Source of the DNA: Cyanobacteria bacterium FACHB-DQ100
Lineage (GTDB): Bacteria; Cyanobacteriota; Cyanobacteriia; Leptolyngbyales; Leptolyngbyaceae
Reading direction: 5' to 3'
DNA: 64,000 bases
Assembly: GCA_014695195.1 (NCBI GenBank)
Contig: JACJNW010000028.1
Location: 1,116,001-1,180,000, forward strand
In this document: positions 21,442 through 26,772 of the stretch, piece by piece
How positions within the stretch are numbered: the stretch's first letter is position 1
Layout: the number at the start of each line of letters is the position of its first letter
The notes under the pieces: model-generated
What the model was told of the DNA's origin: nothing
What the model saw: the letters and a program-made list of their open reading frames with translations, nothing else
Database searches by the model: none
Program-made: the position numbers and the translations under genes

Positions 21442-21966
21442 TCACGAAACCTTCTCCAAGATTAACGTCAATATCTTCAAAGCTTTGCTTAGATCAGTGC
21501 GTACAGTTTGTAACTCAAGCTCGATCGTATCTAATCGTTGAAACACAGATGTTTGATTAGGGATAGAAACCGTTGCTTGTCGATTCAACTTATCAGCCAG
21601 CGATGCCCATGTGTTTGCCTTGATTCCGAAATGTAATTTTGCCTGTTTCAAGGTTTTGAACTGCTGCTGAAGTTGTTCGATTGTCAGTGGTTCTGTTGTC
21701 GTGGATTGAGTATATCGCTCTAAATCTTCTTCCACCATTTCAACAACTTGATCAATTAAGCGATCGTGATTCTCCGAAATTTGGGCGGCTGCTCCTAAAA
21801 TTCGTGAGGTTGCCTTAATTTGCAAACTGGTCTCTTGGCGCAGTTGATCGGCGATCGCGCGAATATGATCGCCAGCGTTTCCCGAATTTGCCATCTTTTT
21901 AATTGCACTAGAGCGATCGCTCATTGCCTGCCTCACTCTGCCAAAATTTCTTTTACTGCCTGCCAA
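21442..21966 (-). CDS. Hypothetical helical protein, partner of the coiled-coil gene
   Basis: The 174-residue protein is predicted mostly helical, with charged/glutamine-rich stretches (QLQQQFKTLKQAKLHFGIK and a C-terminal DTIELELQTVRTDLSKALKI). A motif KTWASL-like segment (NTWASLADKLNRQATVSI) sits in the middle. No known domain was recognised. Its start lies inside the end of the upstream coiled-coil gene (34-base overlap), so the two are probably made together and may interact. Confidence 0.65.
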   Translation of the reverse strand: MAGSKRNFGRVRQAMSDRSSAIKKMANSGNAGDHIRAIADQLRQETSLQIKATSRILGAAAQISENHDRLIDQVVEMVEEDLERYTQSTTTEPLTIEQLQQQFKTLKQAKLHFGIKANTWASLADKLNRQATVSIPNQTSVFQRLDTIELELQTVRTDLSKALKILTLILEKVS

Positions 21967-22763
21967 ATTCGCTGTAGTTTCTGAATCATGCCCACAGGGT
22001 TAGTCGTTGAATCTTCATCGACGGAATCGACTAATCGTTGAATGCGATCCATGCGCTCAGCGACCACATACAAACTATCAATTGCTTCATCTTTGCGCTC
22101 TAAGGAGTCGCGTAGCAACACAGTCATCTCTCCGATCTCCTGTTTCAAGCGTTCATTCTCCCGCTTACGTCGCGTCTCCCAACCTTTAATTCCTGCCTTT
22201 GAGCGGCGTTCAAACTTAAGCTCATTCTGGGACTCGTTGTAGAGTGTCAGATAGCGATCGCGTTCCGCTTGAATCTGCTCGAATTTAACAGAGAGTTGAT
22301 CATTTTTTGTTTTTTCAGATTCGTAAAGCGCCAAATAAGACTCAAAATGAGTTTGAGCTTCTTGATACAGCATTGAGTAAGATTGAATTTGACTTTGAGC
22401 CTCTTGATATTGTGTAAAATAAGACTTTGCTTGGTTTTGAGCTTCCTTGTACTGAATCAGGTATGAACGTGCCTGAACTTGCACTTCTTCATACTGCGTC
22501 AGCGTTGCTTGATATTGCTGCTGTGCTTCTTGATACAGTGTCAGTGATGTCTGATGCTTCCGTTGTTCCTCTAGGTACAAGCAATGTGTTTCTTCAGCTT
22601 CTTGCTCTTTTACTTTAGCAAGCTCCTGCCATTCGTCTCGCTGTACTCGTACCGTGGATAATTGCTGCCTCAGTTCATGAGTGGAAAGAGGCTCTTGTTT
22701 CTGAGACTGGGGATATTTGCGCTCATTGTCACGAGACTCGCTTCCCCGATCCGCTCTTTTCAT
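21933..22763 (-). CDS. Coiled-coil protein with 14-residue tandem repeats
   Basis: The 276-residue hydrophilic protein has a regular repeat between about residues 62 and 187: at least eight units of 14 residues with the pattern (L/Q)YxEAQxQxxSYLx. Examples are LYQEAQQQYQATLT, QYKEAQNQAKSYFT and LYQEAQTHFESYLA. Fourteen residues equal two heptads, so a long continuous coiled coil is expected, decorated by evenly spaced tyrosines. A basic segment (ERRSKAGIKGWETRRKRE) follows and may bind nucleic acid or acidic partners. No membrane segment. It overlaps the next gene by 34 bases. Function unknown; a structural filament or scaffold is one possibility. Confidence 0.75.
   Translation of the reverse strand: MKRADRGSESRDNERKYPQSQKQEPLSTHELRQQLSTVRVQRDEWQELAKVKEQEAEETHCLYLEEQRKHQTSLTLYQEAQQQYQATLTQYEEVQVQARSYLIQYKEAQNQAKSYFTQYQEAQSQIQSYSMLYQEAQTHFESYLALYESEKTKNDQLSVKFEQIQAERDRYLTLYNESQNELKFERRSKAGIKGWETRRKRENERLKQEIGEMTVLLRDSLERKDEAIDSLYVVAERMDRIQRLVDSVDEDSTTNPVGMIQKLQRIWQAVKEILAE
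22245..22580 (-). repeat. Tandem 42-bp (14-codon) coding repeats
   Basis: Eight consecutive 14-codon units within the coiled-coil gene code for (L/Q)YxEAQxQxxSYLx. They are diverged at the nucleotide level, which points to old duplication followed by drift under selection for the repeat register. Confidence 0.7.
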
Positions 22764-24325: not shown

Positions 24326-24859
24326 ATGTTGAATGTCTTGCCTCTGAGGGCGATTTTATATCAGCTTTTCTTTATTGTGTTGGCGATCGCAGTCGAAGCG
24401 ATCGTGCTGCAATTTTATTTAGGCATTGGCAAAAAATCCAGCATTCAATATGCCTCAACCGCAAATCTTTTCTCCACGGTCGTCGGCTGGCTTGTGTTTT
24501 TTTCGAGCGATCGCTGGCTGCCTCAACCCTGGCAACAACAGCTAATGAACTACATTTTTCTAGATGAAATTAGTAATTACTCCTTGTTAGTCGTGATTGC
24601 ATTTGTGACATTTTTAGGAACGTTTGTGGTCAAACTTCAGAGCTTAAACTGGCTGGACTTGATTTTAGAGAACAAACCGACCAGCGTGATGGAAGTGCGC
24701 GATCGTACAAAATTTCAAGGTAAGTCCGCACAGCGTCAAGCCTTTCAAGAAGTACCGAGTCGAGCATTAGCTGTGCTGTTGGCGAACTCGGCAAGTTTTG
24801 CGCTGATTGCGTTGATTATTCTGATTCGGACAGTTTCTGAACAGCCCGTTGCGTTTTAG
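24326..24859 (+). CDS. fraC: Filament integrity protein FraC
   Basis: FraC is a septum-located membrane protein needed for long filaments and intercellular molecular exchange in Anabaena. The 177-residue protein has the FraC profile: an N-terminal helix near LFFIVLAIAVEAIVLQFYLG, helices near FSTVVGWLVFF and YSLLVVIAFVTFLGTFVV, and a last helix near ASFALIALIILI. The cytoplasmic loop reads SVMEVRDRTKFQGKSAQR. It is the first of three genes in fraC-fraD-fraE order, with an 11-base gap to fraD. Confidence 0.88.
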   Translation: MLNVLPLRAILYQLFFIVLAIAVEAIVLQFYLGIGKKSSIQYASTANLFSTVVGWLVFFSSDRWLPQPWQQQLMNYIFLDEISNYSLLVVIAFVTFLGTFVVKLQSLNWLDLILENKPTSVMEVRDRTKFQGKSAQRQAFQEVPSRALAVLLANSASFALIALIILIRTVSEQPVAF

Positions 24860-24870
24860 GGATAGAAGCC

Positions 24871-25914
24871 ATGCTGTGGATGAATCAAGTCTTTAAGCAA
24901 ATTCGCGATCGCGTCACGCTGCCGCAATGGGCATCCTGGCAAACGCTCTTATTCTTAAGCATTTTTAGCGTAATTGTTGCGGCACTCACCACATCGCCGC
25001 CGCCGCAAATCGCTCAACGGATTATTTCATCTTTTGGTTGGATATTCCTAATTCTCAGCGTGTGGTGGTTTGTCTACGAACCGCCTGTGAAAAAGAAATT
25101 GACTTTTTATAATTTCTTTATCGGTCCTTGGATTGTTGGGGCGATCGTATGTGTATATTTGTTCGGCACGATCGAAGGTGGAAGGATTCCAACTCAAACT
25201 TCATGGATCAGTTGGCCCCCGATTTCATCGCTTATCTGGTCAGCTCCCAAATTCATCAAGTCTGACTCCAAAACCAAAAGCCCCGTTTACACCAATCCCA
25301 GCAAGGCACATCGTCAAGACATCATTTTGGTGATATTAGCCAATCTCATTATTAGCTGCTGGTTTCAGTTCTCCTTTCAAATTCAAAATTGGATTGCAAA
25401 TAATCCCTCGCTGCAAGGCGAAGATTTCTCGCGCAGTGGGTTTGTTTGGCAACCGCAGCGCTTCGATCGAGATACGGCGCTCTCTCGTGGAGCCGATGTG
25501 CTTAACATTGCCGCCCAATCTGTCCGCACTGAACTCGAAGGCAAACCCTGGGGACAGGTCGAACGCTGGCTTACCAACCTCGATCAGCAAGTGCCGCGCT
25601 TGAGGCAGCAGGTCAAGGAGCAACTGCCGCGATCGTCACAGCCAGATTTATGGATGCTCAATGCTGAAGTCACTTCGGCAGCGTATGACTTAAAGCTTCA
25701 AGCCCTCTGGCGCAGACCCAACTCTCGTCAGGCAGGATCTGAACTAACGCGCACTTGTCGCATTACTCCGGTACGGCGAGAAAGACCCACACCAGAGTTT
25801 AGATTCGATGACTCGGCTCCGCCAGCTCCGGCTCCGGCTCGCGTGCAAGAAGTAGGAACTGTGCAATGTGGTTCGATCACGCCGCCTAAGCAAATTCAGC
25901 CGACCAGATCGTAA
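24871..25914 (+). CDS. fraD: Filament integrity protein FraD
   Basis: FraD is a component of septal junctions, the cell-cell channels of filamentous cyanobacteria. The 347-residue protein has five hydrophobic segments in its N-terminal half (for example TLLFLSIFSVIVAALT, IFLILSVWWFVYEP, WIVGAIVCVYLFG, ILVILANLIISCWFQF). A periplasmic C-terminal domain follows, including the coiled-coil-like VERWLTNLDQQVPRLRQQVK and a proline-rich end. The order and spacing between fraC and fraE support the assignment. Confidence 0.87.
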   Translation: MLWMNQVFKQIRDRVTLPQWASWQTLLFLSIFSVIVAALTTSPPPQIAQRIISSFGWIFLILSVWWFVYEPPVKKKLTFYNFFIGPWIVGAIVCVYLFGTIEGGRIPTQTSWISWPPISSLIWSAPKFIKSDSKTKSPVYTNPSKAHRQDIILVILANLIISCWFQFSFQIQNWIANNPSLQGEDFSRSGFVWQPQRFDRDTALSRGADVLNIAAQSVRTELEGKPWGQVERWLTNLDQQVPRLRQQVKEQLPRSSQPDLWMLNAEVTSAAYDLKLQALWRRPNSRQAGSELTRTCRITPVRRERPTPEFRFDDSAPPAPAPARVQEVGTVQCGSITPPKQIQPTRS

Positions 25915-25971
25915 TTCTTCGGGCAAAATGGGGAATTCGAAAGGTGAGTTTCTTGTGCAGGAGAATTGGCT

Positions 25972-26772
25972 ATGAGTCAGGCGGTGCAGACCGTGGGCGG
26001 TACGGTCATGCGAATTCAGGCGATCGCGGCAAATGTGTTTCGAGAAGTGATTCGCGATCGTGTTCTCTATCTGATTGGGCTTTATGGAGCGGGCTTGTTG
26101 TTAGCGGGTCGCCTTTTACCCGAAGTGGCGGCGGCAACCGAAGCGAAAATTCTGCTTGATTTGGCGCTGGCAGCGATGCCCGTTTTCGGATTGATTGTGG
26201 CAATTTTTATTGGCACAGGATTAGTCAACAAAGAAATTGAAAAACGCACCGTTTTTGTCCTAATCGCAAAGCCTGTGAGCCGTGCTGAGTTCATCATTGG
26301 CAAGCATTTGGGGTTATCGGCAGTTTTGGCAGTGTTGATTACAGCTATGACCGTGAGCGCGATCGCGATTCTATCTGCATTCAAGGCTCCGTTTCCTTTG
26401 GCAAATCTTCTCTTGTCCTCTATTTTTCTATGGCTGCAATTGTCTCTAGTCAGCGCGATCGCGCTGCTGTTTAGTGTGTTTGCTAGCGCTCTGCTGGCGA
26501 TGATGCTGACGTTTGGCATTTACCTGATCGGACAACTGAGCCAAGACCTGGTGCAATTCGGCAGATTGACCAAAAATCCTGCGATCGAAACTGCGACCCA
26601 AGGATTGTATCTTGTGCTTCCGGATCTAGCGCGGTTGGATTTGAAAAATCAAGCAGTCTACAACTTAATTCCCGCTGCCCCCACTTTATTCGCAAGCGTG
26701 TTGTATGCCCTGCTTTACATCACCTTGACTTTGGCGATCGCGTCGCTGATTTTTTCACGGCGGGAATTCTAA
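25972..26772 (+). CDS. fraE: FraE, ABC-2 type permease of the fraCDE operon
   Basis: The 266-residue protein from the ATG at 25972 has about six membrane helices and the ABC-2 permease pattern: an N-terminal amphipathic segment NVFREVIRDRVLYLIGLYG, then the conserved NKEIEKRTVFVLIAKPVSR loop. In Anabaena FraE is required for filament integrity and heterocyst maturation. A TTG two codons upstream is the alternative start. The matching ATPase is not adjacent. A weak hairpin follows at 26801-26830. Confidence 0.86.
   Translation: MSQAVQTVGGTVMRIQAIAANVFREVIRDRVLYLIGLYGAGLLLAGRLLPEVAAATEAKILLDLALAAMPVFGLIVAIFIGTGLVNKEIEKRTVFVLIAKPVSRAEFIIGKHLGLSAVLAVLITAMTVSAIAILSAFKAPFPLANLLLSSIFLWLQLSLVSAIALLFSVFASALLAMMLTFGIYLIGQLSQDLVQFGRLTKNPAIETATQGLYLVLPDLARLDLKNQAVYNLIPAAPTLFASVLYALLYITLTLAIASLIFSRREF

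Follow-up and report, generated by a model that had tools for sequence, protein, structure and literature searches.

The locus considered here raises the question of whether a protein that repeats a 14-residue pattern over much of its length, encoded next to a second small helical protein, is a peculiarity of one genome or half of a conserved two-gene system and, in the latter case, what such a system might do. Both genes lie in the window, by which we mean the whole 64,000-nucleotide stretch of cyanobacterial DNA that was analysed. The repeat gene (P1) comes first and its partner (P2) second, both on the minus strand:

21933..22763, minus strand: P1 rod gene, 276 aa, ATG start (open reading frame; homologues; dN/dS).
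22683..22763, minus strand: P1 residues 1-27, conserved short head, predicted to be disordered (alignment A1; low pLDDT).
22215..22592, minus strand: P1 residues 58-183, nine 14-residue (two-heptad) units (lag analysis; homologue lengths).
22143..22214, minus strand: P1 residues 184-207, nearly invariant basic motif FERRSKAGIKGWETRRKRENERLK (invariant columns, alignment A1).
21939..21998, minus strand: P1 residues 256-275, separate C-terminal helix (model; aligned with the C-terminal segment of the type F rods described below).
21925..21932, minus strand: 8-nt spacer from the P1 stop to the P2 ATG (sequence).
21442..21924, minus strand: P2 partner gene, 160 aa from ATG 21924 (homologue alignments).
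21703..21876, minus strand: P2 residues 17-74, long conserved helix (alignment; model).
21577..21693, minus strand: P2 residues 78-116, three-helix module common to other cyanobacterial proteins (profiles; model).
21448..21558, minus strand: P2 residues 123-159, C-terminal helix, probably coiled coil (alignment; model).

The 14-residue tandem repeat reported for P1 in the original prediction is real. Over residues 61-182 the identity at lag 14 is 0.39, whereas 2000 shuffles averaged 0.095 and never exceeded 0.20 at that lag; their highest value at any lag from 2 to 44 was 0.26. The unit had been written as (L/Q)YxEAQxQxxSYLx in at least eight copies. Nine units indeed follow in a single register, but both tyrosines are present in only five of them; the second tyrosine occurs in eight, with Phe at that site in the ninth. 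Tandem Repeats Finder (score 50 or more) detected no array within the P1 gene, so the repeat copies have diverged at the DNA level. The basic region said to close the repeat is present (residues 184-207), and about 70 more conserved residues lie beyond it in alignment A1, from which the truncated L066, L072 and L073 were left out. In the same alignment the head has the consensus MRRxDRxxxSDDNxxxxPxSRxxEP. P1 is a single-copy gene in its genome.

The two genes had been described as overlapping. This depends on a TTG start of P2 at 21966, which sits inside P1 and would make P2 174 aa long. Alignments of distant P2 homologues begin only at about residue 14/15 of the TTG-started frame and therefore favour ATG 21924, 8 nt past the P1 stop; the TTG start is judged unlikely, and we reject the overlap as a consequence of P2 having been started too far upstream. 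A partner ATG lies near the P1 stop in 24 of 29 loci (window included). The first such ATG is 5-15 nt past the stop in 22 of the 29, two loci have an earlier one as well (at -1 and -34 nt), and in five a script search found no partner ATG near the stop. In the P2 model (pLDDT 75.7) one helix spans residues 17-74, three short ones fall between 82 and 118, and the last occupies 123-159.

Do these proteins belong to a known family? None had been recognised for either, and our searches agree, as Pfam, NCBIfam, PHROG, PADLOC and PDB gave no convincing match. At E up to 1, Pfam and NCBIfam produced only marginal or coiled-coil matches for P1 and P2. The best PDB match by sequence was a coiled-coil construct (E 0.0016). 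With the P2 model, Foldseek found no solved relative (best E 8.2 in PDB and 0.88 in BFVD), and VIA-align 2 aligned three chains, with a best Z of 3.0 over residues 6-54. PHROGs yielded nothing for P1 and marginal matches for P2; one P2 homologue (L069:8503-9033) matched a DnaB-like helicase family of this collection (E 6e-5, residues 15-115). Phage records contained no match to P1 or to the C-terminal half of P2, viral contig collections none to either protein, and the other types of pairs described below likewise had no viral or phage match. One copy of the pair resides on a plasmid (L101:11995-13251, Nostoc sp. MS1 plasmid pNSMS101), one in 72,556 records. A mobile or phage origin as the main reading was rejected on these grounds. 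In the open PMC literature we found no paper naming the pair.

Homologues and conserved synteny extend well beyond the strain. P1 was detected in 41 genomes among 388 from the class. P2 matches at E up to 1e-3 occur in 61 of the 388, and the 41 strong ones (E below 1e-32) fall in exactly the 41 genomes carrying P1. In 40 of the 41, P2 comes right after P1 on the same strand; in the forty-first genome each of the two genes sits at the end of a separate contig. Among 97 related genomes, the window's own included, P1 is present in 16 and P2 at E up to 1e-3 in 21, the 16 strong P2 matches (E below 1e-22) being in the same 16 genomes as P1. With no convincing family match and with adjacency conserved elsewhere, neither of the outcomes that the original prediction had named as speaking against it was found. 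The neighbours of the pair differ between genera: no neighbouring gene recurs in more than three of 17 loci, the exception being one broad cluster, by eye of histidine kinases and response regulators, common to six loci. Six loci with a named source come from FACHB-63, a Phormidium, a Leptolyngbyaceae, a Leptolyngbya and two cyanobacterial MAGs. The pair is absent from 347 of the 388 genomes, four of the same genus among them (G002, G003, G004 and G006), and therefore is not generally essential.

The distance matrices of P1 and P2 correlate with r 0.73, compared with 0.33 for the best of 2000 permutations (relatedness ignored), over the 25 loci with both proteins, of 30 with P1 and 26 with P2; the P2 of L059 (broken frame) was left out of alignment A2 and that of L053 out of A3. 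Comparison of the window with two close relatives (L057 and L058) gave dN/dS of 0.17 and 0.08 for P1 and of 0.38 and 0.15 for P2 (150 codons), values that indicate purifying selection on the pair. In the comparison with L057 synonymous divergence is unequal (dS 0.40 for P1, 0.09 for P2), which may reflect recombination inside the pair. The distribution is scattered over the class and the joint P1/P2 tree does not follow families: f24, f13 and f1 each appear in more than one place (support values not considered), suggesting transfer or repeated loss. Two oddities may be added. At a contig end in genome G068 (L066:1-725), a P1 frame without a stop runs ahead of a P2-like start, which could be a genuine fusion or an error of assembly, and genome G047 has, besides its P1, a truncated P1 fragment of 72 residues on another contig (L073:4551-4769).

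Could the repeat nevertheless be an accident in a functionless protein? Nothing beyond the absence of annotation in Pfam and NCBIfam speaks for this, whereas the C-terminal part of P1 is constant, measuring 92 residues from the invariant ERRSK motif to the end in 36 of 41 sequences, with many invariant columns, and both P1 dN/dS values are low. Because P1 is conserved, we regard this idea as refuted and give it virtually no credence.

What kind of protein, then, is P1? Its model (pLDDT 84.6) has one helix over residues 28-250, then a separate short one at 256-275, and leaves the head disordered, a prediction that supports the rod shape originally proposed. From the conserved start to ERRSK, P1 homologues span 107 to 222 residues. 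As measured in the 35 of 41 sequences that have the N-terminal anchor (the other six lack it), this length equals 2 modulo 14 in 26 of 35 and 2 modulo 7 in 29 of 35. When each of the 15 distinct lengths is counted once, seven fit modulo 14 (probability by chance 4e-5) and nine modulo 7 (5e-5). Within the 84 residues preceding ERRSK in 29 P1 sequences, the fraction of hydrophobic residues or tyrosine at unit positions 0, 4, 7 and 11 is 0.74, 0.91, 0.53 and 0.60. These positions have the 4-3-4-3 spacing of a heptad core, and tyrosine predominates at position 4. Positions 1 and 3 are also hydrophobic or tyrosine (0.74 and 0.58) and as leucine-rich as the proposed core. Heptad spacing and length steps taken together place the tyrosines most likely inside the coiled-coil core or next to it, and show that P1 changed length mostly by whole two-heptad steps, with both ends kept in phase. 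The paired tyrosines, to which special significance had been attached, are doubtful as a distinctive feature because their spacing fits ordinary heptad core positions.

A rod of this kind calls to mind cytoskeletal filaments, in which P1 would self-assemble like the cyanobacterial coiled-coil-rich filament formers and P2 would act as an assembly factor. Such filament-forming proteins are known and HmpF and Slr7083 are, like P1, coiled-coil-rich cyanobacterial proteins (PMC7002697). The predicted P1 rod is long and uninterrupted, carries a disordered head and has a periodicity compatible with heptads, that is, the continuous coiled coil expected of a filament former. However, P1 did not match the HmpF model (NF038350, NCBIfam) at E up to 1, and rod length varies two-fold among homologues, which a lattice may or may not tolerate. 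We consider a filament unlikely. Coiled-coil scaffolds are already known as a kind. By the NCBIfam model P1 is not HmpF. It differs from HmpF and Slr7083, the HmpF model alone having been compared, in its 14-residue repeat, its invariant basic motif and its constant small partner.

The partner had been described as an unknown. This holds insofar as no convincing family emerged, but what had been missed is that P2 contains a module of about 40 residues, with three predicted helices, that is found in other cyanobacterial proteins, most of them adjoining another coiled-coil gene. The module contains an invariant Trp. In 20 genomes that lack P1 the P2 profile matched weakly, almost always to this middle module and nothing else. 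We examined 20 module regions, from 16 of these 20 genomes (G136, G145, G299 and G379 were left out) and from second matches in three genomes with the P1/P2 pair (type P). In seven regions (type S) the module forms the end of a protein some 170-210 residues long, and in six (type H) it lies inside a protein of 104-126 residues. In two regions it ends proteins with a membrane segment (by eye), and the match at L150, within a 1084-residue frame, was taken as due to chance. At L131, L133 and L134 a DnaJ-like segment (below the Pfam cut-off) follows the module, and the next gene is, as we take it by eye, HNH-nuclease-like, although Pfam (E up to 1e-3) gave nothing for the two of these genes that were scanned. 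At L137:1303-3435 the module ends a serine/threonine kinase (PF00069) in a 710-residue frame. The P2 profile matches type S partners at 97% and type H partners at 98%. Pfam and NCBIfam contained no family for the module in ten proteins scanned, and 22 module peptides searched against Pfam gave one marginal match, to NUMOD1 (E 0.19).

As in the window, where the rod gene lies directly upstream of the module-bearing partner, a coiled-coil gene was found directly upstream in six of seven type S and all six type H loci of the first set; with two later loci, the counts are seven of eight and six of seven. No rod was found beside the type S partner L149 or the type H-like partner L185. The rods themselves are another matter, since the P1 profile matches type S rods at 1% and type H rods, to which P1 has no detectable relation, at 0.5%. 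A type S rod had a sub-threshold match to the HmpF model (31 bits, cut-off 200). The P1/P2 pair seems to belong to a larger group of gene pairs that is apparently undescribed. Unusual in P1/P2 is a rod that varies mostly by whole 14-residue units and was never found without a small module-bearing partner, the module of which is missing from every family library searched.

Among these relatives, type H invites comparison with toxins. Its rods (L138, L142 and L144-L147) carry a HicA-like N-terminal domain and are followed by the small partner with the P2 module; three of the four scanned matched the HicA toxin domain (PF07927) with E of 2e-4, 0.016 and 0.024, all below the cut-off. If P1/P2 were likewise a conflict module, either a toxin-antitoxin or a defence system in a small two-gene operon, the scattered distribution and a tree at odds with families would be easy to understand, and a type I-MYXAN CRISPR operon does stand about 1.5 kb away from the plasmid copy in Nostoc. 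Yet neither a HicA nor a HicB domain was found in P1 or P2 (Pfam, E up to 1), and neither protein belongs to a PADLOC defence model, as there was no match for P2 and there were two marginal ones for P1 (E 0.098 and 0.22). A type S rod had 25 PADLOC matches (best E 3e-4), which we take as general coiled-coil similarity. Moreover, searches of phage and viral collections found no match, and the C-terminal part of P1 is conserved across families. A conflict module is the least probable of the functional roles that we weighed.

A close counterpart of P1/P2 is a set of pairs that we call type F (L241-L260, L181-L183, L219-L222, L227 and L228), recognised by a rod with the hallmark RSATEFP...SRAQLIRRN and a partner beginning MGK. 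At E up to 1e-3, type F rods turn up in 60 of the 388 genomes (in 50 at E up to 1e-8), genomes of 1.9-3.7 Mb in family f2 among them. The order of genes is again rod, then partner: in all 20 of 20 type F rods an MG-started frame of more than 80 residues begins between 17 nt before and 121 nt after the stop. The rod, too, has a basic SR-motif, a coiled coil and a C-terminal helix, but the SR-motif is near the N-terminus and no 14-residue array precedes it. In profile comparison P1 and type F rods match at 82% (E 1e-5), with the basic motif and the C-terminal helix aligned; since coiled coils inflate profile scores, we grade their common ancestry as likely only. P2 matches the first three type F partners at 90% and the more common type F partner weakly, at 44%. 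Alignments of type F proteins left out the partners L242, L258 and L260 (A14) and the rods L251, L260, L181, L227 and L228 (A13). The type F proteins scanned had no Pfam or NCBIfam family above the cut-off, and SMC matches of type F and S rods in NCBIfam, far below the cut-off, were taken as coiled-coil similarity. Some partners depart from the common design: in a type F-like partner (L260:2295-2660) a Rho_N (E 2e-4) or HeH/LEM-like (E 0.002) segment, below the cut-off, replaces the module, and those of L221 and L222 retain the N-terminal part, while their C-terminal part is another one that lacks the module.

Types P and F may replace each other. None of the 41 P genomes has a type F rod, where 6.3 would be expected (relatedness ignored), and the hypergeometric probability of this exclusion is 0.0007 for the 60 F genomes and 0.0025 for the stricter 50, again ignoring relatedness. 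In genera g13, g18, g78 and g94, P is found in one species and F in another. The idea that P and F occupy one locus was rejected, as five within-genus comparisons of the fetched stretches revealed no common genes. A broader type F profile matched two of 28 P genomes, in frames of 660 and 732 residues, the former reading through two stops, and we take both as chance coiled-coil matches. It also matched two of 28 genomes in which neither P nor F had been seen earlier; many genomes thus have neither at a detectable level. Mutual exclusion is not a general rule among pair types, for S and F coexist in G022, H and F in G164, and S and P in G204. Should the various types of pairs form a single family, they would represent a conserved, unannotated cyanobacterial system, present also in genomes of 1.9-3.7 Mb in one family (f2).

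What might the pair do? The reading that we favour, tentatively and at somewhat less than even chances, is that of a two-subunit coiled-coil scaffold that tethers DNA or RNA. P1 would be a long, presumably oligomeric coiled-coil rod that has the short disordered head at one end and terminates in the invariant basic segment and the short C-terminal helix; how many two-heptad units it contains would determine its length. P2, encoded directly downstream, would dock on P1 through its own helices, and its three-helix module, which by eye we take to be helix-turn-helix- or SAP-like, would contact nucleic acid. The pair might then keep DNA or RNA a fixed distance away from the target of the rod head or of the basic segment. 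For a scaffold speak the strict co-occurrence of P1 and strong P2 matches, their adjacency amid otherwise changing neighbours, their correlated distances, the rod's length steps of 14 or 7 with a spacing that suits a heptad core, and the recurrence of the module. For nucleic acid the hints are weak. Small helix-turn-helix/SAP-like modules such as NUMOD1, HNH_repeat, Rho_N and HeH/LEM resemble the P2 module in having about 40 residues and three predicted helices, and there are marginal matches among type F partners (NUMOD1 in four of 17, best E 0.013; HTH_50 in three of 17, best E 0.056), whereas the P2 module itself matched no DNA-binding family in Pfam. The Rho_N, HeH/LEM, DnaB-like and HicA-like matches point weakly in the same direction, HicA being described as a dsRBD fold (PMC10865869). 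Against this interpretation, the hints come mostly from other pair types, the link of which to P2 is partly weak (44%), the P2 model is of modest confidence, and membrane or protein would be just as plausible a target of the basic segment. That all the types constitute a single cyanobacterial two-gene system, a tether family combining an adjustable rod with a small nucleic-acid-binding partner in alternative types, P and F replacing each other, is a bolder and rather doubtful proposition; if true, it would amount to a cyanobacteria-specific family of nucleoid or RNA tethers.

The surroundings of the pair bring up a different role for the same basic segment. At 24326-26772 of the window lies fraC (PF24301, E 8e-51), about 1.5 kb from the pair, followed by genes that from their position we take to be fraD and fraE. 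P1 could serve as a membrane or septum scaffold, its basic segment and C-terminal helix binding the membrane while the rod recruits partners. The proximity to fra genes was noticed after the fact, however, and among the fetched loci, many of them short, fra genes were seen only for close relatives (L051/L057 and L052/L058) and for G022. We consider a scaffold of this kind less probable than a filament and well behind the nucleic-acid tether. The locus of G022 (L132) is that of a type S pair, which stands directly after genes that by eye we regard as fraD-like and fraE-like.
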